From Fibrobacter sp. (GTDB lineage Bacteria; Fibrobacterota; Chitinivibrionia; Chitinivibrionales; Chitinispirillaceae): a stretch of 64,000 nucleotides of DNA. The notes beneath the pieces were generated by a model. That model did not search any database and was not told the origin of the DNA. It saw only the letters and a program-made list of their open reading frames with translations. The position numbers and the translations under genes are program-made. Below, piece by piece: positions 38,868 through 56,460 of the stretch (positions are counted from its first letter, which is position 1; every line of letters starts with the position of its first letter). The stretch lies in NCBI GenBank assembly GCA_012523595.1, contig JAAYIG010000197.1:1-64000 (forward strand), given 5' to 3'.

Positions 38868-39836
38868 TCATTTTTTCCCACTGTCCACAGGAGGCACATA
38901 TACCAGCGATGTGTCTTTGTAACGGATATCTGCCTGTGAAATCAGCTTGTCAACATATGAAGTGACAAATTCATTCTTCTGCCTCAATTCAAGGGAAATC
39001 CGGATACGATCCTTGACCTCATCAAACGAAAGAGGTTTTCCAGGTTCTTCATCTGTTTTCTTCAGAATATGAAATCCAGCTTCTGTCGGAACAAGATCAC
39101 TGACTTCACCAGTTTTCAATTTTGCGATTATTGTATCAAGTTCAGGTTTCAGATCTCCCCGCTTGAACCACCCGATATCACCACCCGAAAATCTGGTTGC
39201 TGTTTTGGAAAAATCCGCCCCACCCCTTATCTGATCCAGCACTTTCTGCGCCTCAGCCCTTTTTTTCTCCCTCGTTGCTGTGGAGGTATCTGATGAAAAG
39301 AATATCTGGCTCACCCGTGACTTCGGAGGATTCAAGTACCTGGTTCGATTTTCCTCATAAAATGTCTTGCAGTCCTCTTCTTTTATGGAATCGATATCTT
39401 TCAGTACTGTTTTCAAGAGAGTATCAACCAGTGCACCTTTCTGCATCTCACCCTTTATCCCCTCCTCAGTCTGCCCCATCGCTGCCAATTCACGCTTAAA
39501 AGTGGCATCATCACCAAACCTGCCCTTGAATTGTTTAAACGCACTGTCCACCATCATACTGTCAAAAGAGAGCTTGCGCCTGTCAGCCTCCTTCAGCAGA
39601 AGCTCATTGGCAATAAGCTGTCTGGCAGCACCTTTCAACAATTCTGGTGAGACCCCTTCAAAGGCTTTTGTGGGAAACATGCTTACCATGCTCTTGTGAA
39701 TAAGATCAGCAGCCTCTTCGACCTGTTTACGGGTAATCGTTTTGCCCTCCACAATTACCGCCGCATCCTTGTTTTCACCCTTGCCACAGAACAGCCCAAA
39801 ACAGCAGATCGCCGTCAGAATGATTCTCTTATCCAT
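38868..39836 (-). CDS. parvulin-type peptidyl-prolyl isomerase (SurA/PpiC-like)
   Basis: The N-terminal signal sequence ends in a Cys (GLFCGKG), possibly a lipoprotein, though the lipobox is not canonical. A helical SurA-N-like domain (residues 30-175) precedes the parvulin domain (about 185-275: SRVSQIFFSSD, SGGDIGWFKRGDL, GFHILKK). A chaperone role in the periplasm for outer-membrane proteins is expected. It reads toward the AT-rich patch and is followed upstream by a phosphodiesterase-type gene on the same strand. Confidence 0.87.
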   Translation of the reverse strand: MDKRIILTAICCFGLFCGKGENKDAAVIVEGKTITRKQVEEAADLIHKSMVSMFPTKAFEGVSPELLKGAARQLIANELLLKEADRRKLSFDSMMVDSAFKQFKGRFGDDATFKRELAAMGQTEEGIKGEMQKGALVDTLLKTVLKDIDSIKEEDCKTFYEENRTRYLNPPKSRVSQIFFSSDTSTATREKKRAEAQKVLDQIRGGADFSKTATRFSGGDIGWFKRGDLKPELDTIIAKLKTGEVSDLVPTEAGFHILKKTDEEPGKPLSFDEVKDRIRISLELRQKNEFVTSYVDKLISQADIRYKDTSLVYVPPVDSGKK

Positions 39837-40016: not shown

Positions 40017-42035
40017 TTATACTTCCTGTCTCTGGGATTGTTCCATTTCGTCAAGCGATGAATTCTCATCAAGCCAGTTTTTCCGTGAAGCGACCCTGAG
40101 AAATGCCTTGATGACAATTGGATCAAACTGCTTCCCGCTTCCTTCAATCAGACGTTTTATAGCTTCTTTCTTTCCCAGACTGTCTCTGTAAGGTCTGTTG
40201 GAAGTCATCGCCTCGAAAGCATCGGCAACATGCAAAATTCTTGCACCTATCGGAATCTGATCTTCCTTGAGATTATCAGGATAGCCGCCGCCGTTATAAT
40301 GTTCGTGATGATGAAGTATAAGGTCATGAAGATCATGAAGGAATGGAACATCTTTGACTATATTGGCACCCAGAGTACTGTGAGTCTTCATGATGCCATT
40401 GAATTCCTCGTATGTCAAAGGGCCCGGCTTATTGAGAATATATCCCGGGATTCCTATCTTTCCTATGTCATGAAGCAGTCCGGCATCACGGATAATCCCT
40501 ACATTTTTCTCGTCAATCCTCATCTCCCGGGCGATCTCTTCTGCAATGTTCATCACATTTTCCGAATGCCCGTGAGTATAGGTGTCTTTAGCGTCTACAG
40601 CGATCGCAAGAGCCTTGATTGTGCGGATATAATTCTCCTTCATGTCACTGTAAAGCTTTGAATTTGTCAGGGCAATTCTTGTTTGACTTACAAGACTGGA
40701 CAGAAGTGCCTTCTTTTCGGACTCTCCCGGCATCTCTCTTGATGATCCAAAGAAAATGGCGCCGAACTTAAGGTCCTCCCATACAACCGGCATCACGTAC
40801 CTGAACGCCAATGGAAGTTTCAGATACCCGGATGTCTTCGTTGAAAGCTGTATCCTTCTGATAAAAACTTTACGTTCGCTTATGTGTCCGGAAACTGCAG
40901 TGTTAAAACTCTCTATAACCTCTCTGCGAATCTCCCTCACTATGTCATCTTCCACCTCTCCCCTTGACCAGTACATAAACTCATGAGTTCTGCGCTGAGC
41001 CACCAGAAAGCCCATGAAATCGAGGGGGAAGTTGCGAATCGCGGTCTCATAAAGACACCTTATCACATCGTATTTATCAACCAGTCCCATAAGCCGTTCG
41101 GAATAGCTGGATATGAGCATCAGCTCATCGAGCTTCTGATTGATGGAATGGTAAAGATTGGCATTGTTGATAGCTACACCGGCCTGTGATGCCAGTACAT
41201 CGATAACGCTCTTATTGAAAAGATTAAAGGGAGGAGACTTGCTGGTACGGTTCAGATTCACTACACCTATAGTTTCTCCTGAAACTTTAATAGGCACTGA
41301 AAGGGCTGACGATATGTCCTGTCTCGAGAAATTCAGTCCAGTTTCAGGAGTAGTCTTACCATCCGCCAGCAGAAGCGATTTTCCATTAGTAAACACCCAC
41401 TTGGAAATAGTCCATTCTGTCAGGTCAGCAAGCGATGATCGGACACTTGATGAATTGATGGCTTTCTGCCTCACCATGACCAGTTCCTGATTCTCTCTAT
41501 CTATAAGCTGAAGAGATCCGCTCTCGGCCTCTGATACCTCAAGGCAGAACTGAAATGTGATATCAAGTAATTCGTCAAGGTTGTGGGTTGTGGTAAGCCT
41601 GGTTGTGATATCGTAAAGAGAAACCATCTCGTTGAGCATGAAATTCTCACGCATCAAACGGGTAGATTTAATAGCCTGGTTTATCTTCTGAAGGAGCAGT
41701 TCAAACTGATAGGGTTTGAGGATGTAATCATAGGCACCACTCTGGACTGTTTTCACCGCTACATCGAGATCTGGATCGAGTGCGGTAATAATAACCGGTG
41801 TAGTGGAAATCATCTTCCCGGCATTCTTAAGAAATTCCAGCCCGTCCATCTTCGGCATCTTCAGGTCCGCAACAACTACATGAGGCCTGATCTGCTCCAG
41901 CATCTCCATCGCCTGCAAACCATCATAAGCCAAAGCTGTCTTGATTCCAACAGAAGAGAGGTATTTTGAAACGGCCGAACAGAGGCTCTGATCATTATCG
42001 GCCAGTAAGACAAGGCATTCTTCTTGAAGGCTCAT
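40017..42035 (-). CDS. receiver-GAF-HD-GYP protein (predicted c-di-GMP phosphodiesterase)
   Basis: 672 aa with a receiver domain (residues 7-125, Asp in VVADLKMPKMDG), a GAF domain (about 150-310), a second sensory region (about 320-460) and a C-terminal HD-GYP domain. The HD-GYP domain has GLLHDIGKIGIP and HHEHYNGGGYP, where the GYP motif is kept, plus DAFEAMTSNRPYR. It should hydrolyse c-di-GMP in response to phosphorylation. No kinase is adjacent. It ends near the parvulin gene and follows the barrel gene by 33 bases. Confidence 0.92.
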   Translation of the reverse strand: MSLQEECLVLLADNDQSLCSAVSKYLSSVGIKTALAYDGLQAMEMLEQIRPHVVVADLKMPKMDGLEFLKNAGKMISTTPVIITALDPDLDVAVKTVQSGAYDYILKPYQFELLLQKINQAIKSTRLMRENFMLNEMVSLYDITTRLTTTHNLDELLDITFQFCLEVSEAESGSLQLIDRENQELVMVRQKAINSSSVRSSLADLTEWTISKWVFTNGKSLLLADGKTTPETGLNFSRQDISSALSVPIKVSGETIGVVNLNRTSKSPPFNLFNKSVIDVLASQAGVAINNANLYHSINQKLDELMLISSYSERLMGLVDKYDVIRCLYETAIRNFPLDFMGFLVAQRRTHEFMYWSRGEVEDDIVREIRREVIESFNTAVSGHISERKVFIRRIQLSTKTSGYLKLPLAFRYVMPVVWEDLKFGAIFFGSSREMPGESEKKALLSSLVSQTRIALTNSKLYSDMKENYIRTIKALAIAVDAKDTYTHGHSENVMNIAEEIAREMRIDEKNVGIIRDAGLLHDIGKIGIPGYILNKPGPLTYEEFNGIMKTHSTLGANIVKDVPFLHDLHDLILHHHEHYNGGGYPDNLKEDQIPIGARILHVADAFEAMTSNRPYRDSLGKKEAIKRLIEGSGKQFDPIVIKAFLRVASRKNWLDENSSLDEMEQSQRQEV

Positions 42036-42068: not shown

Positions 42069-43112
42069 TTACCAACGGTAAGTTAAACTGATCTGACTTG
42101 CTCCGGCAAACGCCATCACAGATGAATAGGCAAAATCAAGCCCTGCCCGTCCGCCAAACAGATTAACTCCGGCTCCGAAACTGAATTTCCCCTGAGTCAA
42201 ACCCACCCTCAAAGCAAGCCTGCTCATAATGGTATACTCCAGTCCGTATCTGCCTGCCGTAAAAAGCATCGATGGATTCCTGGACACCCTGCGGAATTCA
42301 GGTCCCTCGATACCAACACCGTCGGCTAATTCATCACTCCCAATATAGTTAATTCCCTCATTGGACAGAAGATCCGGCGTGCAATACACGATCAGCACCT
42401 TTCCGTAAATATAAGGGAATTCCCTCTCCCAGCCTATCCCCACCCTGATATGGGGAGAAACTCTCTGACGATAAGATTCGCTCCAATACACAACACTTCT
42501 CACTATATTTTCAAAAGAAATCGCCAGAGATATCCCGGGATCACTGAAGAGTACCCTGGTCCCAAGGTCCATCCCAATGCTATATCCACGGTATTCTGAA
42601 AGGTTTACCCGCCCCCCGTTAATTGCCCCGCCTGCCGCTATTATGACAGACTTGTTAAGATGATACTTCCACCCCAATCCAGCACGAAAATAGATCCTCG
42701 ACAGAGAGATTATCTCCGGGTCATAAACCGGATCACCGTTTTCGCTTGTATCTGAGTTGGCGGTTATCTCCACATCAGGCAAAAATGTGTACCCCAGGGT
42801 AACTCCATATCCAATATTTTCTCCTGCTTGTGAACTGAATGAAAGCAGCGAAGTACTGAAGGTGTTATGGAAATAATTGGCATAGGAGAGCGATAGAGTG
42901 TTAAGAGAATCAAAAGCCAGATTTGCAGGAGTGCTTGCAGGAAAGATTCCGGAACTAGTGCCTAAATCTGCACCTGCAAGAGCTTCGGAATAAGGAGCGT
43001 TCATCAAATAATCATTTATATCCGAGTAAAATCCGAAACTTGACCGGGCATCACCCGTTGTAAAAAGGGCGGCTGCTAAAACCGCGATTCCGGATTCTAT
43101 CAGGCTCCTCAT
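42069..43112 (-). CDS. second PorV/PorQ-like outer-membrane barrel
   Basis: The signal peptide is at residues 1-22 (AVLAAALFTTGDARS). EALAGADLGTSSGIFPASTPANLAF resembles the PorV-family N-terminal motif. Regularly alternating beta-strands follow, and the C-terminus ends in an aromatic residue (ISLTYRW), a typical outer-membrane barrel end. It may share a transcript with the receiver-GAF-HD-GYP gene. The function is unknown. Confidence 0.7.
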   Translation of the reverse strand: MRSLIESGIAVLAAALFTTGDARSSFGFYSDINDYLMNAPYSEALAGADLGTSSGIFPASTPANLAFDSLNTLSLSYANYFHNTFSTSLLSFSSQAGENIGYGVTLGYTFLPDVEITANSDTSENGDPVYDPEIISLSRIYFRAGLGWKYHLNKSVIIAAGGAINGGRVNLSEYRGYSIGMDLGTRVLFSDPGISLAISFENIVRSVVYWSESYRQRVSPHIRVGIGWEREFPYIYGKVLIVYCTPDLLSNEGINYIGSDELADGVGIEGPEFRRVSRNPSMLFTAGRYGLEYTIMSRLALRVGLTQGKFSFGAGVNLFGGRAGLDFAYSSVMAFAGASQISLTYRW

Positions 43113-43333
43113 GTCAGTATTTACCTGTCCCCATTAAATAAAGATCTTACCATAAAATAACTTCTTATCCTCTGCATTACCATAGATTTGCACTTTAAAT
43201 CATAAACCGGAAAGGTATGATCGACCACTGCATATCCAGACCGAAAAGACAATTATACAATAAAGCACTGTATAACTGCACCAATCTTGATCAAAGACGA
43301 AATAATCGTTTTGCGGTTTAGTACCAAAAAAGA

Positions 43334-43374: not shown

Positions 43375-43448
43375 GGGCGCATGGCTCAGTTGGTTAGAGC
43401 GCCGCGTTCACATCGCGGAGATCGCTGGTTCGAGTCCAGCTGCGCCCA
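43375..43448 (+). tRNA. tRNA-Val (anticodon CAC)
   Basis: The acceptor GGGCGCA pairs with TGCGCCC. The D-arm has GCTCAGTTGGTTAGAGC, the anticodon stem CCGCG/CGCGG encloses TTCACAT, and the T-arm GCTGGTTCGAGTCCAGC is intact. CAC reads GUG codons. The 3' CCA is not encoded. Confidence 0.95.
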
Positions 43449-43573: not shown

Positions 43574-45013
43574 ATGAATTCCGGCTTAATTTTCAGAAAC
43601 AATTTAGCCTGTCTGTTACTCATCTCCCTGTTCTCAATAGCCTCCTCACAGGAATCTATCAGCTTTACCCTGCCTGAGCAAGGATTGCTTATAAATACCC
43701 CCATCTGTACACTACTGGTGGAATCTGATTCCAGAATAAGAAGAGTCGAATTTCAAGCCCGATATACGAATGCCAAAGACTCAGCAGTGATTATTGACCT
43801 GGGCGCAGTCTCAAAAGCTCCTTTCCAAACGGTGTGGGATATTTCAAAAATCCCTAACCAGCTCATCTCCGGTGTCTCTCTTCTTGCCATAGCCACTATG
43901 GGTAACTGGAAAGAAGTGGAAACCAAAAGAGAAGGCGTATTCTTTGTTCATCACCCAATTAAAAGGCCTTTGAAAACTATCCACTACGATCATAAAGGCA
44001 CAAAAAAAATCAAATCAGATACAATCTCTTTAAAATATGCCCGCTCTCCAGGCACCGTAACCTCATCTCTATATTGGAATGAGAATGATATAACAGTTTT
44101 GCTTGAGGTTAAAGACCCCCTGTTTTATGCCAATGTGACACGTGAAGAGCTCGCAGGTATGGGTATGGAAATAATGCTCGACCCATCCATGAGTAGAAAA
44201 CCTTACCCAGACAAAGATATCCTCTCCTATGCAGTTCCTCTCTACGGAAAGCCCTACAGAATCATCTATAATCCTCAATTTGATTCCAGCGGAAGCTTTA
44301 AACTCACTACCAGCACTGAACCCTGTGATTTTAGACACCAGGTGACCAAAGTGGATTTCAAGGGTTTTAAGATCTATTTCTCAATTCCTCTGGAAAAAAT
44401 CGCAACTCCTCTACCCGAAGAAATTGCCTGTAATCTGGTGGTTAAAACACTTGTAGGAAACAACATTGTCAGGAGTCCATGGATCAACCACGGCCCTGCA
44501 GCATCCTACAGCCCCTTTGTCTGGGGATCTGTCAAATTCCATCCAAAGCCATTTTATAAAAACCGGTTGCTGATTGGGGGTATCTCTTTCGGTTCCGGAT
44601 TCATGTTAACACTCCTGGTTCAATTGCTCATCTTTTCTCTTAAAAAAACCAGTACAGGCGGGACCACTAGAAGATCTGAAGTTGATGAAAAAGCATTTGA
44701 GAGGATAAAAGAAGCGATGGAGAAGCGAATTACCCAGAAAAATGCAGCCAAAGAAGACATTGCAAAAGACCTTAAGATCTCTGCCAAAAAACTTAACAAA
44801 CTGATAAAATCATTTACAGGATTGTCATTCCAAAACTACCTGATGTATAACCGCACCGAAATAGCAAAGGAAAGACTGCGCTCCTCTCATTGCAATGAAG
44901 CTACTGTGGCAGAAGCGTGCGGCTTTCAGAATGCCCAGGAAATGGAGAAATATTTCCTGAAATTCCACCGTACAACACCCGGAAAATTCCGCTCAGAGCA
45001 ACAGGTCGCCTGA
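43574..45013 (+). CDS. membrane-spanning AraC-type regulator with extracytoplasmic CBM9-like domain
   Basis: The architecture is unusual. A signal peptide (residues 1-25) leads to a beta-sandwich region with an Ig-like N-part (about 28-125) and a part resembling the CBM9/DOMON carbohydrate-binding fold (about 140-325, LYWNENDITVLLEVKDPLF, GMEIMLDPS). A transmembrane helix lies at about 338-362 (IGGISFGSGFMLTLLVQLLIF). The cytoplasmic AraC helix-turn-helix pair lies at about 380-475 (AAKEDIAKDLKISAKKLNKL, VAEACGFQNAQEMEKYF). This implies one-component sensing of an external ligand, perhaps a glycan, coupled directly to transcription. The CBM9 assignment is by eye only. Confidence 0.75.
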   Translation: MNSGLIFRNNLACLLLISLFSIASSQESISFTLPEQGLLINTPICTLLVESDSRIRRVEFQARYTNAKDSAVIIDLGAVSKAPFQTVWDISKIPNQLISGVSLLAIATMGNWKEVETKREGVFFVHHPIKRPLKTIHYDHKGTKKIKSDTISLKYARSPGTVTSSLYWNENDITVLLEVKDPLFYANVTREELAGMGMEIMLDPSMSRKPYPDKDILSYAVPLYGKPYRIIYNPQFDSSGSFKLTTSTEPCDFRHQVTKVDFKGFKIYFSIPLEKIATPLPEEIACNLVVKTLVGNNIVRSPWINHGPAASYSPFVWGSVKFHPKPFYKNRLLIGGISFGSGFMLTLLVQLLIFSLKKTSTGGTTRRSEVDEKAFERIKEAMEKRITQKNAAKEDIAKDLKISAKKLNKLIKSFTGLSFQNYLMYNRTEIAKERLRSSHCNEATVAEACGFQNAQEMEKYFLKFHRTTPGKFRSEQQVA

Positions 45014-45825: not shown

Positions 45826-46257
45826 TTAAACATCAAGCACAACAACAGCCTCCCACCCCGAACCGGTCTCCTTTACCTGAAAATGGTGCAGAGTAACAGC
45901 TTTTACATCCACTGCCAGATTATGCCTGGTGTCATCTATCTCCTCTCCAACAGCCATTCCTTCAAAAACAATCGATTCTCCGCGCCTCTCAATTGAAACA
46001 TTCTTGAGCCGCATCAACAGCCGGAAGGCATCCTTTAAATAGATTAGCTCCTGAAGAACCTGGAAAAGCAGCATCTCTTCAGAATTGTCCTCGACTTTCA
46101 CAGAGCGAATCTCTTTTTCTCCAACAGAATCAATATCCTCCACCATCAGGTTTGTGGTAGCATCAAAAGCAGCCGTGAAAAGCTCCTCCAACGTCTTTCC
46201 CCAGGCCCTGAATGCAGCATCAGAAGTAGTTATATCTTCCAGATATTCATAGGGCAT
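45826..46257 (-). CDS. archease (RtcB activator)
   Basis: 143 aa. The N-terminal YEYLEDITTSDAAFRAWGKTLEELF, mid-protein DNSEEMLLFQVLQELIYLKD and C-terminal AVDVKAVTLHHFQV match the bacterial archease subfamily, which promotes multiple turnover and guanylylation of RtcB. The His of the classical DHTAD motif is Asp here. It lies 3 bases downstream of rtcB on the same strand, which confirms the partnership. Confidence 0.92.
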   Translation of the reverse strand: MPYEYLEDITTSDAAFRAWGKTLEELFTAAFDATTNLMVEDIDSVGEKEIRSVKVEDNSEEMLLFQVLQELIYLKDAFRLLMRLKNVSIERRGESIVFEGMAVGEEIDDTRHNLAVDVKAVTLHHFQVKETGSGWEAVVVLDV

Positions 46258-46260
46258 CGT

Positions 46261-47712
46261 TCAGCCTTTCACATTTCCTATCGGTGAGAAACGCACAATC
46301 GGGCGGCTTATCTGCGCCAGACTGGCAGCCTCAACCACCTCATCGATATTTTTATACGCACCTCCGGCCTCTTCAGCCAGTGCGGAATAGGAACTGGTTC
46401 TGGTATAGATCCCCTTCTCTGCCATCTTCTCCTGAAGCTCTTTGCCCCTGAAAAGCTTCTTTGCTGCCTTACGACTCATCACACGACCACTCCCATGTGT
46501 TGTGGAGTAAAAACTCCGGGCTCCCTCAGAAACCCCGGTCAAAAGATAAGAACCAGTCTCCATGCTTCCACCTATTATGACCGGCTGCCCGGTTTCCCTG
46601 TACACCTCCGGTACCCCCTCCATCCCGGGACCAAACGCCCTGGTAGAACCCTTTCTATGAACCAGAAGCCTCTTTGCTACTCCGTCAACCACATGAGTCT
46701 CCAGCTTGGCGGTGTTATGAGCAACATCATATACCTGATGCATTCCTAAATCCTCAGCACTCCTTCCGAAAATCTCAGAGAAGGCTTTGCGGACTTGATG
46801 AAGGATGATCTGTCGATTGGCAAAAGACATATTTATAGCACATTTCATCGCCTCAAAATAGGCCTGTCCTTCAGATGAATTGAATGGTGCACAGGCTAGT
46901 TCCCTGTCAGGAGCAGTGATTTTGTATTTGCCCATGGCATTGAGAAATACCCGTATGTAATCGGTTGCCATCTGATGCCCGAATCCACGGCTCCCGCAAT
47001 GAAACATCACTACCACCTGCTCTGTTCGAATCCCAAGCAGTGAAGCTATATGCTGGTTAAAAATGTGCTGAGGCCTGACAACCTGAATCTCCAGATAGTG
47101 ATTTCCAGATCCCAGACTCCCAAGCTGATGAATTCCGCGCTCAATTGCCCTCTCACTTACCCTGGATGGTTCCGCACCCTCTATGCAACCGTTTTCTTCT
47201 GTCCTTTGCAGATCCTCCTGCCACCCATATCCGTTCTTAACACACCATCTTGCCCCCTCTACCGCAACTCTCATGAACTCCCGCTTGTCTACCTTTATCT
47301 TCCCCCTGCTTCCTACTCCCGAAGGCACATCTTTAAACAGCCGGTCTACAAGCATCCCAAGCCTCGGTTGAACCTCACTGTAAGTAAGATTTGTCAGCAC
47401 AAGTCTCATCCCGCAATTAATATCGAACCCTATTCCCCCGGGAGAGATCACCCCTTCATCAACATCCATCGCAGCCACCCCCCCTATGGGAAAACCATAC
47501 CCCCAATGCCCATCGGGCATACAAAGGGAGTATTTGACTATGCCGGGAAGCATGGCAACATTTGCGACCTGGTTGAAGACACCCTCATCCATCTCATCGA
47601 TCAGCTTCTCTGTCGCGTAGATACGGGCCGGGACTCTCATGCCTGGTTTAAAACCGGACGGAAGTTCCCAAATGGTGTCGGTAATCTTCTGAAGCTGGGA
47701 AGGACGGGTCAT
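46261..47712 (-). CDS. rtcB: RtcB family 3'-phosphate RNA ligase
   Basis: It joins 2',3'-cyclic phosphate or 3'-phosphate RNA ends to 5'-OH ends using GTP and Mn. Metal ligands are visible in GGIGFDINCGMR (Cys100), GSGNHYLE and FHCGSRGFGHQ. The guanylylated His lies in TTHGSGRVMSR near residue 400. 483 aa is normal. It is followed at 3 bases by archease and preceded by a BON-domain gene (15-base gap), consistent with a stress or RNA-repair operon. No RtcR-type sigma-54 regulator is nearby. Confidence 0.95.
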   Translation of the reverse strand: MTRPSQLQKITDTIWELPSGFKPGMRVPARIYATEKLIDEMDEGVFNQVANVAMLPGIVKYSLCMPDGHWGYGFPIGGVAAMDVDEGVISPGGIGFDINCGMRLVLTNLTYSEVQPRLGMLVDRLFKDVPSGVGSRGKIKVDKREFMRVAVEGARWCVKNGYGWQEDLQRTEENGCIEGAEPSRVSERAIERGIHQLGSLGSGNHYLEIQVVRPQHIFNQHIASLLGIRTEQVVVMFHCGSRGFGHQMATDYIRVFLNAMGKYKITAPDRELACAPFNSSEGQAYFEAMKCAINMSFANRQIILHQVRKAFSEIFGRSAEDLGMHQVYDVAHNTAKLETHVVDGVAKRLLVHRKGSTRAFGPGMEGVPEVYRETGQPVIIGGSMETGSYLLTGVSEGARSFYSTTHGSGRVMSRKAAKKLFRGKELQEKMAEKGIYTRTSSYSALAEEAGGAYKNIDEVVEAASLAQISRPIVRFSPIGNVKG

Positions 47713-51867: not shown

Positions 51868-54800
51868 TTATCTAACAATTATAAGCTTCCCTTTTATCAG
51901 CACTTTGCCTTTCATATTCGATATGGAGTAAAGATATAATCCTGAATTGACAAGTTCCCCAGCCTGATTGCGGGTATCCCAGAACCACTGCGGCTTGAAA
52001 AGTGAATTTCCAGGCTCCAGATGGATCCGCTCCCCTGCTTTGTGAGAATCAAAAACCGGATGAGCATTGATATTGTATATCTTTATTCTCAGATCTGTTG
52101 AAGATGGCCTGAGATTGTGAAGGTTCTTGAACCAGATTCCGCATGGACCGCTGTTTCTGCAGTGACGGGGGTCTTTACCGGGTTTGTAAGGGTTAGGATA
52201 AGTGTAAAAACCCATATTTGTCGAATAATACTGCCAGTCCCTTTTCGAAAATACAGACACAGTATCAGCAGGCAGATTTACCGATCTGCCGTAACGATAA
52301 TCGGATGCAAAACCGCTGAATGTACAATTAATCACGTCCCCACTGAAATAGCTGACTTTTGGCTGAATGGTCACAGAAAAACTGTCCCGCGAAAACTCTA
52401 TCGAACTGAAACCCGACCTTTCACTGCTGTATAAGGTCGAGAAGATAAAGCTTCTGTTTGACGGTAAGGTATCGGAGTCGATGGTTCCTGGAAGAATTCG
52501 CTCAGAAAAACGAAGTGTCACGCGTGGAAAACTGTCCTTAACAACTGTCCCATCTTCCGGTGTGACATCAACAATCTCTATACCCTTTACCTTGTAACTC
52601 CATTTCACATCCTCAAGTGTGGAACTTGAATCAAAAAGCGTTGATGGAATACCGTCACCGTCATTGTCAGCCGGAAACCCCATCAGATCCCTTGCACTTA
52701 CCCCTCTGTATGTACACCACATGCTGTCATTATAAAAAAGTCTCTCCGCTATCCGGAAAGTCACCCGGTTTGAACTAATGCCAATGCTGTCAAAGGAAAG
52801 AGGTGCACTACCGCTATACCTGGAGTGCACTCTCAGGAAACGATTGTTTTTATGGGAAGTATCAATTGAAGAAGCGTACACAGGTGATGAAAAAACCAGT
52901 GTAATCGAGGGTTTCAGCCCAAGCACACTGTCTGGCCGGGGAATTATTCCCAGAAGGCTGAAACCGATGCTGTCAACTCTCATTCCCCTCTTCTGCTGAC
53001 CGGTGCTGTCTCTTCGGAAATCATTGTTGATATCCAGGCGATTAGGCCCCTGAGAGGTGCGAGCCACATCGGTCAGATCAACAGTCATGACAACCTCAAG
53101 GGAATCTGTAGGGATAAAAAGCCCCTCAGGAGGGAAAAAACCGAACCGCGGGCTGGCTTTTTGGTATGATGGAGTAAGGTTGAGCCTGGTATTGTTCTGG
53201 CTCCATGTGTAATTGTATCCGATCGGATCATCTTTTCCTGTAAACTCTCTGTCAAGAACACTGCAAAGGTGAACTCCACTCCTTGTCAACGCTGTATCCA
53301 TCGGCTCCGAAAAGGAAATCTGTATTGTCGCATGCGGGGGAAATCTGTACAAAAGACGCTTACCCAGTGGTTTATAAGGAACATTGGCAATAAAATCAGG
53401 GTTTACAGAGATCACACGGGGAAGATCGTTGTACTCCAGAAATACTGGAATTGTATCGGAGGGATGGCGGGGATCACTGGTAAAAAGTATCACGGTGTCG
53501 GATAGTATCCCGTCACCGAGCAGTCTCTCTACGGAGAAAATAAAACTGCAGGTCAGAGGCTGGTATGGCGGAAGAAGAAGCGGCTTGAAACCCGATGAGT
53601 TTTCTGAAGTAAATACGACATCCTGACTGTCCTGTGGAATAACTACCGAAAGCCACCTGGAACTGTTACCCTTAAAAACGATTCCAGTGACATGCATTGT
53701 ATCTGTACCGCTGTTAAGAAGAGGCAGATCAATGGTGTCTTTCTCCCCGGATCCCACTATCAGCGATGCTGCATTGGAGAGAGAGTCTATGGCTGAGAGA
53801 TAGTGGGTAGTATCAATTGAAAACCAGGGATATCTGACTGAAAACCTTAGCGTATCGGATCTTCCGAATATATCGGAACAAATAACCGTTAAAAGTGAAT
53901 CGCCTCTCTCAGGCCTGTACTGATGCGAAAAGCTGTTTCCGGTTAACCGTGAACTGTAAGTGGAATCTCTGTTGACAAAACGATAAGTAAGAGTATCCCA
54001 GAATGTGCAGTCCGTATCAGAAACCGTAGTCTGAATCGTTATGCCATTTCCCGGTACTGCCCTCAGCACTTCTCCATCACTGACACTCCTCCCCCCCACC
54101 TTCAAGCCAATAATACGGGGAGAATGGTTAATTCTGATTCTTGTTACGCATAAAATGCTGGTGTCCGGGTCTCTGGCAACAACCGAAACAGTAAATGAAT
54201 CTACTATGGAAAGCGTATCACCGCGGATAACATATCTGCCCTGCTCCCCCATCCCGACAGAATCTACCCTGAAGGATTTTTCTCTGCTTCCAAGTTCAAT
54301 AAATCCCCTGACGAGCACCTGATCATTTGTATCACTTACAGAATAGAAAAACTCCAGAGAATCATCCTCTTGAAGATCATACCTGCTTGGTTTCCCCAAT
54401 TCTATCGTATCCCGCTTGCCCAGAGGAGATGTAAATACCATCGACGCATTTATACTCGGAACTGAATTACGGCCGAAAAGAGTCAGAGTTTTTGATACTG
54501 CTTTCCATCCCTGGTTGTCGACTGCATTAAGCGTACAGATAACGGCCGTATCTGATCTTTCCAGTGGAAGCAGTGTTAATACTGTATCAAAACCGGACTG
54601 CGACACAACAGACAGACTCTGTTTGACAGCAGGGAATGCAGTACTCAGGGTAAGTGTATCTTCATTGTTGTAGTCAAATAGATTTACATACAACAATGCC
54701 GAATCACTCCTGGAGTGCATGTATACTGTATCACCGAAAGAAATCGTCGGATATCTTTTCTTCCCTGTTCTCAAAGAATCGATACCCTCAATTATGGGCT

Positions 54801-56460
54801 GTCCGTTCCAGGGAATTGTTACCGACTTTATCGAAGGAGTGGAAAGTGAATCAACACTGAACCCGGGGTTACGAACTATCTCCATTCTGTATTGAAAAAA
54901 CCTGGCGTCGCCAGGAAGAAATGCCATCGCAGAACTGTCGTGCATGGAAATCCAGGAATTACTCCTGCACTCCGTCACAGTACGACCGATTCTTATAGAA
55001 TCAAGCATCCTCCAATCTGTCAATGTGGAAACATCCACGATTCCAGGGTAGAATCGAATCGAATCACCTGTGGAAACTGGAAGGGAATCAACCGGGGATG
55101 TCCAGAATCCCCTCTGGAAGCGCACCCCCCTGTACCCAAAAGTTGTTCCCTTCAGATAACCTTGAGCATGGGGACTGCTGCTCCAGGTCACTCCGAAATC
55201 TCCCCAACTGTTTATGACACAGTTAACTGCGGCTTTATAACGATCCACTGTGTCAACCGGCACCTCCGAATTGGAATACACAAATGTCTCTGCTGCTCCC
55301 AGCACCCCCTCGGAAACAGGATACCTGAACCCCTCAATTGAGGCCACACCGTCGTTATTGAGATCCCCCTTTACAGCTATTAATAAAAAATTCGAATTGG
55401 ATGATGCGGCACAATACCGGGCTCCCGCTGTGTTGCTTATCTGATCGGGAATTAAATTGACAACTCCATTGTCAATCTCAAGCTGATGCATCAGAATCCC
55501 GCTGCTGTTCCAGAACACAACCGCAAACTTCCCCTCTCCATAGGGTGCCACCCCTGCATCATCGTAAAATGAAAAACGGCTGTCACCTGCTTTTTCCGCA
55601 AAAGCACCCGAAGGGCCACCATCGAGATTCCTGCTGAAAAAGCGGTAATTAAGATACTTGTCACTGCTCGGCTTTCCCCTTGTCCATATTACCAGAACAT
55701 TGCCATACCCATCATAGGAAACAGAGCTGTTAAGAAGATACATCCCATCACTTCCGGTTTCCGAGGTCACCTCGACACTACCCGCTACCTTAAGCGTGTT
55801 CCCGGAAGAATAGATTTTTCTGAGCATTACCTTATTGGCATCGACACTGTTCACAACCAGGAAAGTATCTTCCTCCATGTGACATTGGGATGGAAAAAGC
55901 CATCCGCTGTTAATCACCGAATCAACAGCAAGACTGCAAACCCCGTTATGAAGCATCAGTGAACGTTTGGTGATATTTTCTCTATTTACAAAAGATATCA
56001 GTGTACCACTCTCCCCCTTGTCTGCGTGCAGATAGCAGTCCAGCGGTGCTTTTATTTCACAGAATTTCCTGGGAGCAAGAGCCGTGGCGCTTGTGGTGTT
56101 AAGCTTTACTTCTGTACAGAAAACATATCTGTCAAGTGAGTCTATATAGAAAAAGTAGAAGGTATCAGAAGCCCCGGCAGTTATATCTGTGTAGTTTAAT
56201 ACTTTTGCCCCGGCTGGGACAGAATCACCGAAGAGCTTTATTGTCTCCCTGTATTTAACAGCCAGGCCGATTCCACTGTCCGTGATGGTTATATTGGAAT
56301 CATTGACTCCATCATTACTGACAATAAAATCAGAACGCACATAATTTCCGCAGTAGGCGGAAAATGCTATCAGCAGAACAGCAGCCGCAATTGCCGATAA
56401 AGCAGGCTCAGCCTTTCTGCGATTGCACTTTTCTGATAAACCCCTGCTGCGATACATCAT
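51868..56460 (-). CDS. large secreted protein (1530 aa) with Ig-like repeats and FlgD-like C-terminus
   Basis: An N-terminal signal anchor (residues about 20-38, ALSAIAAAVLLIAFSAYC) follows a basic stretch. Residues about 40-450 are beta-rich and possibly propeller-like. The central region is a series of Ig-type folds. Three SbsA/Big_5-like repeats (about 1035-1430) each start like PEDGTVVKDSFPRVTLRFSE, and a Ca-binding-like DNDGDG lies in the second. The last 100 residues resemble the FlgD Ig or type-IX-like sorting domain (TYPNPYKPG, NSGLYLYSIS). The start overlaps fliJ by 53 bases, so it belongs to the flagellar transcript, in the position often used by fliK/flgD. Confidence 0.75.
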   Translation of the reverse strand: MMYRSRGLSEKCNRRKAEPALSAIAAAVLLIAFSAYCGNYVRSDFIVSNDGVNDSNITITDSGIGLAVKYRETIKLFGDSVPAGAKVLNYTDITAGASDTFYFFYIDSLDRYVFCTEVKLNTTSATALAPRKFCEIKAPLDCYLHADKGESGTLISFVNRENITKRSLMLHNGVCSLAVDSVINSGWLFPSQCHMEEDTFLVVNSVDANKVMLRKIYSSGNTLKVAGSVEVTSETGSDGMYLLNSSVSYDGYGNVLVIWTRGKPSSDKYLNYRFFSRNLDGGPSGAFAEKAGDSRFSFYDDAGVAPYGEGKFAVVFWNSSGILMHQLEIDNGVVNLIPDQISNTAGARYCAASSNSNFLLIAVKGDLNNDGVASIEGFRYPVSEGVLGAAETFVYSNSEVPVDTVDRYKAAVNCVINSWGDFGVTWSSSPHAQGYLKGTTFGYRGVRFQRGFWTSPVDSLPVSTGDSIRFYPGIVDVSTLTDWRMLDSIRIGRTVTECRSNSWISMHDSSAMAFLPGDARFFQYRMEIVRNPGFSVDSLSTPSIKSVTIPWNGQPIIEGIDSLRTGKKRYPTISFGDTVYMHSRSDSALLYVNLFDYNNEDTLTLSTAFPAVKQSLSVVSQSGFDTVLTLLPLERSDTAVICTLNAVDNQGWKAVSKTLTLFGRNSVPSINASMVFTSPLGKRDTIELGKPSRYDLQEDDSLEFFYSVSDTNDQVLVRGFIELGSREKSFRVDSVGMGEQGRYVIRGDTLSIVDSFTVSVVARDPDTSILCVTRIRINHSPRIIGLKVGGRSVSDGEVLRAVPGNGITIQTTVSDTDCTFWDTLTYRFVNRDSTYSSRLTGNSFSHQYRPERGDSLLTVICSDIFGRSDTLRFSVRYPWFSIDTTHYLSAIDSLSNAASLIVGSGEKDTIDLPLLNSGTDTMHVTGIVFKGNSSRWLSVVIPQDSQDVVFTSENSSGFKPLLLPPYQPLTCSFIFSVERLLGDGILSDTVILFTSDPRHPSDTIPVFLEYNDLPRVISVNPDFIANVPYKPLGKRLLYRFPPHATIQISFSEPMDTALTRSGVHLCSVLDREFTGKDDPIGYNYTWSQNNTRLNLTPSYQKASPRFGFFPPEGLFIPTDSLEVVMTVDLTDVARTSQGPNRLDINNDFRRDSTGQQKRGMRVDSIGFSLLGIIPRPDSVLGLKPSITLVFSSPVYASSIDTSHKNNRFLRVHSRYSGSAPLSFDSIGISSNRVTFRIAERLFYNDSMWCTYRGVSARDLMGFPADNDGDGIPSTLFDSSSTLEDVKWSYKVKGIEIVDVTPEDGTVVKDSFPRVTLRFSERILPGTIDSDTLPSNRSFIFSTLYSSERSGFSSIEFSRDSFSVTIQPKVSYFSGDVINCTFSGFASDYRYGRSVNLPADTVSVFSKRDWQYYSTNMGFYTYPNPYKPGKDPRHCRNSGPCGIWFKNLHNLRPSSTDLRIKIYNINAHPVFDSHKAGERIHLEPGNSLFKPQWFWDTRNQAGELVNSGLYLYSISNMKGKVLIKGKLIIVR

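Follow-up and report, generated by a model that had tools for sequence, protein, structure and literature searches.

In the present study, we analysed the window, a stretch of 64,000 nucleotides of Fibrobacter sp. DNA (contig JAAYIG010000197.1, positions 1 to 64,000). At its centre of interest lies a single uninterrupted open reading frame with an ATG start and 479 codons, flanked by a tRNA gene and a divergent set of genes. The features of the locus are as follows.

43574..45013, plus strand: Ig-CBM9-TM-AraC regulator, 479 aa in a single open reading frame (Pfam, AlphaFold2, Foldseek, orthologues)
43574..43648, plus strand: signal peptide, about residues 1-25 (sequence, model helix 6-20, hydropathy)
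43661..43948, plus strand: Ig-like domain of Big_7 type, about residues 30-125 (orthologue Pfam matches, model)
43979..44548, plus strand: CBM9-like beta-sandwich, residues 136-325 (Pfam in orthologues, Foldseek, profile)
44564..44641, plus strand: single transmembrane helix, residues 331-356 (model, hydropathy; followed by basic residues on the side presumed to be cytoplasmic)
44759..44995, plus strand: AraC-type double helix-turn-helix, residues 396-474 (Pfam HTH_18, Foldseek)
43375..43448, plus strand: tRNA-Val (CAC), directly upstream of the regulator
43153..43184, minus strand: candidate promoter/operator box of the divergent gene, TATGGNAA-N16-TTATTTTA (conserved pattern, putative function)
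42069..43112, minus strand: PorV/FadL-like outer-membrane barrel, conserved divergent neighbour and proposed target (synteny, family model, structure model)
40017..42035, minus strand: REC-GAF-HD-GYP protein, next gene of the divergent pair (orthologue L022)
38868..39836, minus strand: SurA/PpiC-like peptidyl-prolyl isomerase, often the third of the divergent set (orthologue L023)

The domains of the regulator were assigned by Pfam, profile comparison and structure prediction. HTH_18 was detected at residues 396-474 of the window protein with an E value of 5.9e-14. CBM9_1 was sub-threshold in the window protein alone (E 0.22) and was matched in 22 of the 34 orthologues (best E 6.6e-10), and the bacterial Ig domain Big_7 was matched in four of them. 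The CBM9-region profile of the window family retrieved only CBM9 structures from the PDB, with E values of 1e-12 for 1i82 and 4.5e-4 for 7nwn. The AlphaFold2 model, built from a 34-row alignment, had a mean pLDDT of 89.5 and revealed two beta domains (about residues 31-138 and 151-322), followed by a helix at 331-356 and the AraC helices. When the model was compared with the PDB using Foldseek, the top matches were the CBM9 structures 7nwn, 7nwo and 1i82 (E about 1e-8, TM-score by target 0.67-0.71), and the AraC domains 3lsg, 3oio and 6swi came next. These results indicated that the protein contains a domain of CBM family 9 by both beta-sandwich fold and sequence profile, together with the double helix-turn-helix DNA-binding domain of the AraC/XylS family. 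Hydropathy analysis revealed the signal peptide, one transmembrane segment and nothing else, and seven Lys or Arg residues were found within the 24 residues after this segment. The first-pass annotation had described a signal peptide, a sugar-binding-like beta-sandwich, one transmembrane helix and an AraC helix-turn-helix in one chain, and both this build and the predicted fold of the ectodomain were confirmed. With a sensor, one transmembrane helix and a DNA-binding domain, and with neither kinase nor receiver, the protein belongs among the membrane-integrated one-component regulators according to its predicted topology. In the Ig-like domain, Cys45 was invariant across the 34 orthologues. 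Most orthologues carry three cysteines in this domain (present in 30, 34 and 27 of 34), and the window protein (43655-43735, residues 28-54) keeps only Cys45.

The distribution of the family was examined by a search of the phylum. An orthologue match was found in 37 of the 40 genomes of the order, the exceptions being G014, G029 and G038; the G026 orthologue was split across two contig ends, and the G024 orthologue (L058:9341-9814) was a 157-aa open reading frame with the transmembrane helix and helix-turn-helix only, its ectodomain absent. At the orthologue-search level, no match was reported from the other families of the phylum, except in G041 and G043. There was nearly always one orthologue per genome in the order, including small genomes of 2-3 Mb, and more than 30 orthologues from independent assemblies were single full-length frames with no internal stops. 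Most f1 genomes also encode a second, paralogous family of the same Ig-CBM9-TM-AraC build, as does the window's own genome, whose member (L060:8643-10157, G000:C198) is 504 aa long and ends in an acidic tail, with a helix-turn-helix that is more divergent. The conserved downstream neighbours of this paralogue include an exopolysaccharide polyprenyl glycosylphosphotransferase (TIGR03025). Seven proteins of G041 and G043 formed a third set with the same architecture. In the 54-row tree, each of the three sets was one clade (support 100/100, 100/100 and 99/96), and their CBM9 regions aligned by profile. The window clade broadly tracked family-level taxonomy, and vertical inheritance of the gene in this order is the best reading. 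The window's own genome encodes four HTH_18 domains in total, two of them in proteins of the Ig-CBM9-TM-AraC build, and its sole CBM9 match at E 1e-3 or better is the paralogue. A search of plasmids matched only AraC-domain stretches, never 80% of the query, a search of viral contigs found no relatives, and a scan of genome contigs found one relative, in a MAG labelled Fibrobacter. Membrane AraC sensors have expanded in G041 and G043, which encode additional TM-AraC proteins, 555-738 aa long, with ectodomains of other kinds (L070, L071, L072, L074, L077 and L078).

The architecture was then compared with known systems. Membrane-bound factors account for less than 3% of bacterial one-component transcription factors (PMC2386152), and the 2008 genome paper of Saccharophagus degradans reported that 16 of its 31 AraC regulators are membrane-bound, several of them beside cellulase or xylanase genes, and suggested a role for them in the detection of polysaccharides outside the cell (PMC2386152). 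The novelty claimed by the first-pass annotation was thus overstated: membrane-bound AraC regulators beside cellulase genes are already known, and what is new is the Ig-CBM9-TM-AraC combination. The S. degradans regulators resemble the window protein in their membrane-borne AraC domain and lineage-specific paralogues; however, they are tabulated with two or six to seven transmembrane regions, whereas the window protein has one, the account given of them there mentions no CBM9 ectodomain, and some adjoin CAZyme genes, which the window gene does not (PMC2386152). In the Bacteroides hybrid two-component systems, an extracytoplasmic sensor, a transmembrane segment and an AraC-type output also share one chain, but a histidine kinase and a receiver stand between the membrane and the helix-turn-helix, and Pfam matched neither domain in the window protein. 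The ToxR-like regulators (CadC, ToxR and TcpP) share with the window protein a single chain, one transmembrane helix, an extracytoplasmic sensor and a DNA-binding domain at the membrane. Their OmpR-type winged helix is N-terminal and their periplasmic sensor C-terminal; in the window protein this order is reversed, and an AraC helix-turn-helix takes the place of the winged helix. The YesS/YtdP-type AraC regulators of Firmicutes also combine a membrane sensor with a C-terminal AraC domain, and are believed to have two transmembrane helices flanking a Cache-like domain; a literature search on YesS and YtdP found nothing. By title or abstract, no description of a CBM9-AraC fusion or of the Ig-CBM9-TM-AraC build was found in the literature searched, and the Chitinispirillum genome paper does not mention AraC.

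The gene neighbourhood was conserved in several respects. The tRNA-Val gene was upstream in 27 of the 34 orthologues, and two of the seven without it sit at contig starts. At L031, a degenerate tRNA-Val-like stretch for which ARAGORN made no call occupies the usual position of the intact tRNA. Of the 32 orthologue loci that offered 1.3 kb or more of room, 17 carried a homologue of 42069-43112 divergently upstream, in addition to the window, and these belonged to families f1, f2, f3, f5, f6 and f7. The barrel gene was often followed by the REC-GAF-HD-GYP gene, and often by the SurA-like isomerase gene as well. The regulator occurred with no adjoining barrel gene in genus g11 and several other f1 genomes. 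Downstream, a hybrid histidine kinase, a metallo-beta-lactamase-fold protein, an uncharacterised protein and a patatin-Omp85 protein were found in many genomes. Recurrent glycan-use genes (CAZymes or sugar transport) were looked for near the orthologues and were not found, so the locus does not show the linkage of a glycan cluster. By eye, adjacent archease-like and RtcB-like (RNA ligase) genes were seen downstream in the window at 45826-47712, a block that, of the loci compared, only the same-genus genome has in common with the window. Further on, 51868-56460 encodes a 1530-aa secreted protein whose C-terminus resembles a type 9 secretion sorting tail.

The product of 42069-43112 had no Pfam match and matched the NCBIfam PorV family below the cut-off. 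The closest structures to its model (pLDDT 81) were those of the type 9 translocon PorV (8gl6_F, E 2e-16; 6h3i_F, E 1.4e-13), followed by FadL. In the window's own genome, T9SS sorting tails gave 59 matches and the PorV model gave 11. A TRTGG box precedes, by 24 bases, the -10-like TTATTTT upstream of the PorV-like gene in six genomes of family f1 (the window, L022, L023, L024, L027 and L030), and a similar arrangement was present at L049 (f5). The exact pattern TATGGNAA-N16-TTATTTTA had a single occurrence in the window genome and another single one in G008, each of them at the PorV-like gene promoter; the search of the window genome for a regulon returned only this promoter, and no regulon was drawn. 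The box overlaps the expected -35 site and the -35 element is poor, which fits an activator-dependent promoter. The candidate box may also be just an ordinary promoter whose -35 element is poor.

The sugar-binding residues of the CBM9 domain were compared with those of characterized modules. The sugar is flanked by Trp71 and Trp175 in TmCBM9-2 and by Tyr89 and Trp191 in CkCBM9.3, whereas CBM9.1, which lacks the expected residues, bound none of the natural carbohydrates tested; CBM9 modules with altered aromatics can bind (PMC8280721). The window domain has the same fold as the Thermotoga and Caldicellulosiruptor xylanase modules (1i82 and 7nwn) but is not part of an enzyme, and in the profile alignment Trp71 and Trp175 of 1i82 correspond to its Leu193 and Ser311. 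Across the 34 orthologues, the first clamp column was occupied by L, I or M along with a few polar residues, the second by M, T, I, L and other residues, and Trp, Tyr or Phe was found at neither column, so the aromatic clamp of CBM9 is absent. Tyr312, one residue from the second clamp position, was kept in 28 of the 34, and might possibly take some aromatic role and thus allow glycan binding by the window protein. The loss of the clamp suggested that the ectodomain most likely senses the state of the envelope, a partner protein or some uncommon ligand, and not the free ends of polysaccharides used as food.

These observations bear on whether the protein is an extracellular polysaccharide sensor, in which saccharide binding to the CBM9 domain would switch on glycan-use genes, as the first-pass annotation had proposed. 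The true CBM9 fold and the S. degradans regulators beside cellulase genes (PMC2386152) speak for such a role. So do the G041 and G043 relatives, near which GH10, GH30 and GH44 domains and one chondroitinase-B-like protein scored over the Pfam cut-offs, with two more of the latter below; ten control genes from four arbitrary G041 regions included no glycoside hydrolase or lyase and one glycosyltransferase, in a comparison that was small and whose neighbours were chosen for annotation after being read. The association of these relatives with glycan-degradation genes is suggestive, and by a by-eye count in the alignment five of the seven have an aromatic residue at the first clamp position, with none at the second; L079 and L080 of G043 retain one Trp of the clamp. 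The expectation of adjacent glycan genes in other genomes thus held for these relatives and failed for the window orthologues. Against a polysaccharide sensor stand the missing clamp aromatics, conserved neighbours that are non-glycan genes (the PorV-like barrel, the REC-GAF-HD-GYP protein, the SurA-like isomerase, the hybrid kinase and the patatin-Omp85 protein), and the retention of one copy in nearly all genomes, small ones among them, which is unlike an accessory sugar sensor. Glycan sensing by the window orthologue is weakened by the clamp loss and the neighbours, and we consider this role unlikely here; for the distant relatives, it is possible.

We instead favour, with a probability of roughly one half, a single-pass, membrane-tethered one-component regulator with an envelope-reading, CBM9-derived sensor, which probably controls the PorV-like/HD-GYP operon. 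According to the predicted topology, the Ig-like and CBM9-like domains would lie outside the cytoplasmic membrane and one helix would cross it. The CBM9-derived sensor would read an envelope signal, and the AraC double helix-turn-helix would bind DNA at the inner membrane face, probably controlling the divergent operon of the PorV/FadL-like barrel and the REC-GAF-HD-GYP protein. A divergent neighbour is not necessarily a target, and chance may preserve synteny at a locus that is anchored by a tRNA.

Signal-controlled proteolysis was also considered, in which the ectodomain would serve quality control and a protease would free the AraC domain to bind DNA away from the membrane. The linker at 360-366 after the transmembrane helix was of low confidence in the model and could be cleaved, and the membrane transcription factor TcpP is reported to undergo proteolysis (PMC11323476). 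However, no recurrent protease gene was found in the conserved neighbourhood, and single-pass CadC is reported to bind DNA while membrane-integrated (PMC6320335), and release by cleavage appeared improbable, to about the same degree as polysaccharide sensing. That the DNA-binding half is non-functional and the protein an envelope structural protein is far less probable. The paralogue family, with its more divergent helix-turn-helix and acidic tail, would suit such a role; in the window family, however, conservation along the chain was highest in the second helix-turn-helix and the connecting helix, in keeping with DNA binding that has been retained, and the truncated G024 protein keeps the transmembrane helix and helix-turn-helix beside the same PorV-like barrel gene. 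An assembly or gene-calling artefact joining two genes, which the first-pass annotation had named as a danger, was ruled out by the full-length orthologues of independent assemblies and the existence of a full-architecture family, and has nothing in its favour.

For the membrane-tethered regulator and its relatives, we tentatively propose a family-wide account, held somewhat less firmly than the reading of the window protein itself. The Fibrobacterota Ig-CBM9-TM-AraC family may use a carbohydrate-binding fold mainly as a signal receptor and may have expanded beside glycan-degrading genes in some lineages. The window's order would hold two vertically inherited regulators: that of the window, which lacks the sugar clamp, tied to a PorV-like/HD-GYP operon, and the other tied to an exopolysaccharide-glycosyltransferase region. 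In this way, a carbohydrate-binding module would have been turned into a sensor of the envelope that binds DNA while at the membrane. Signalling in this phylum has received little study, and the present analysis provides from it a defined and testable AraC regulator that is tethered to the membrane and whose sensor fold is known. If the CBM9 domain did turn from sugar binding to envelope sensing, the family would be a clear case of carbohydrate-module recruitment into signalling, and it may offer a way to study how PorV-like barrels of the type 9 secretion kind are controlled outside Bacteroidota.
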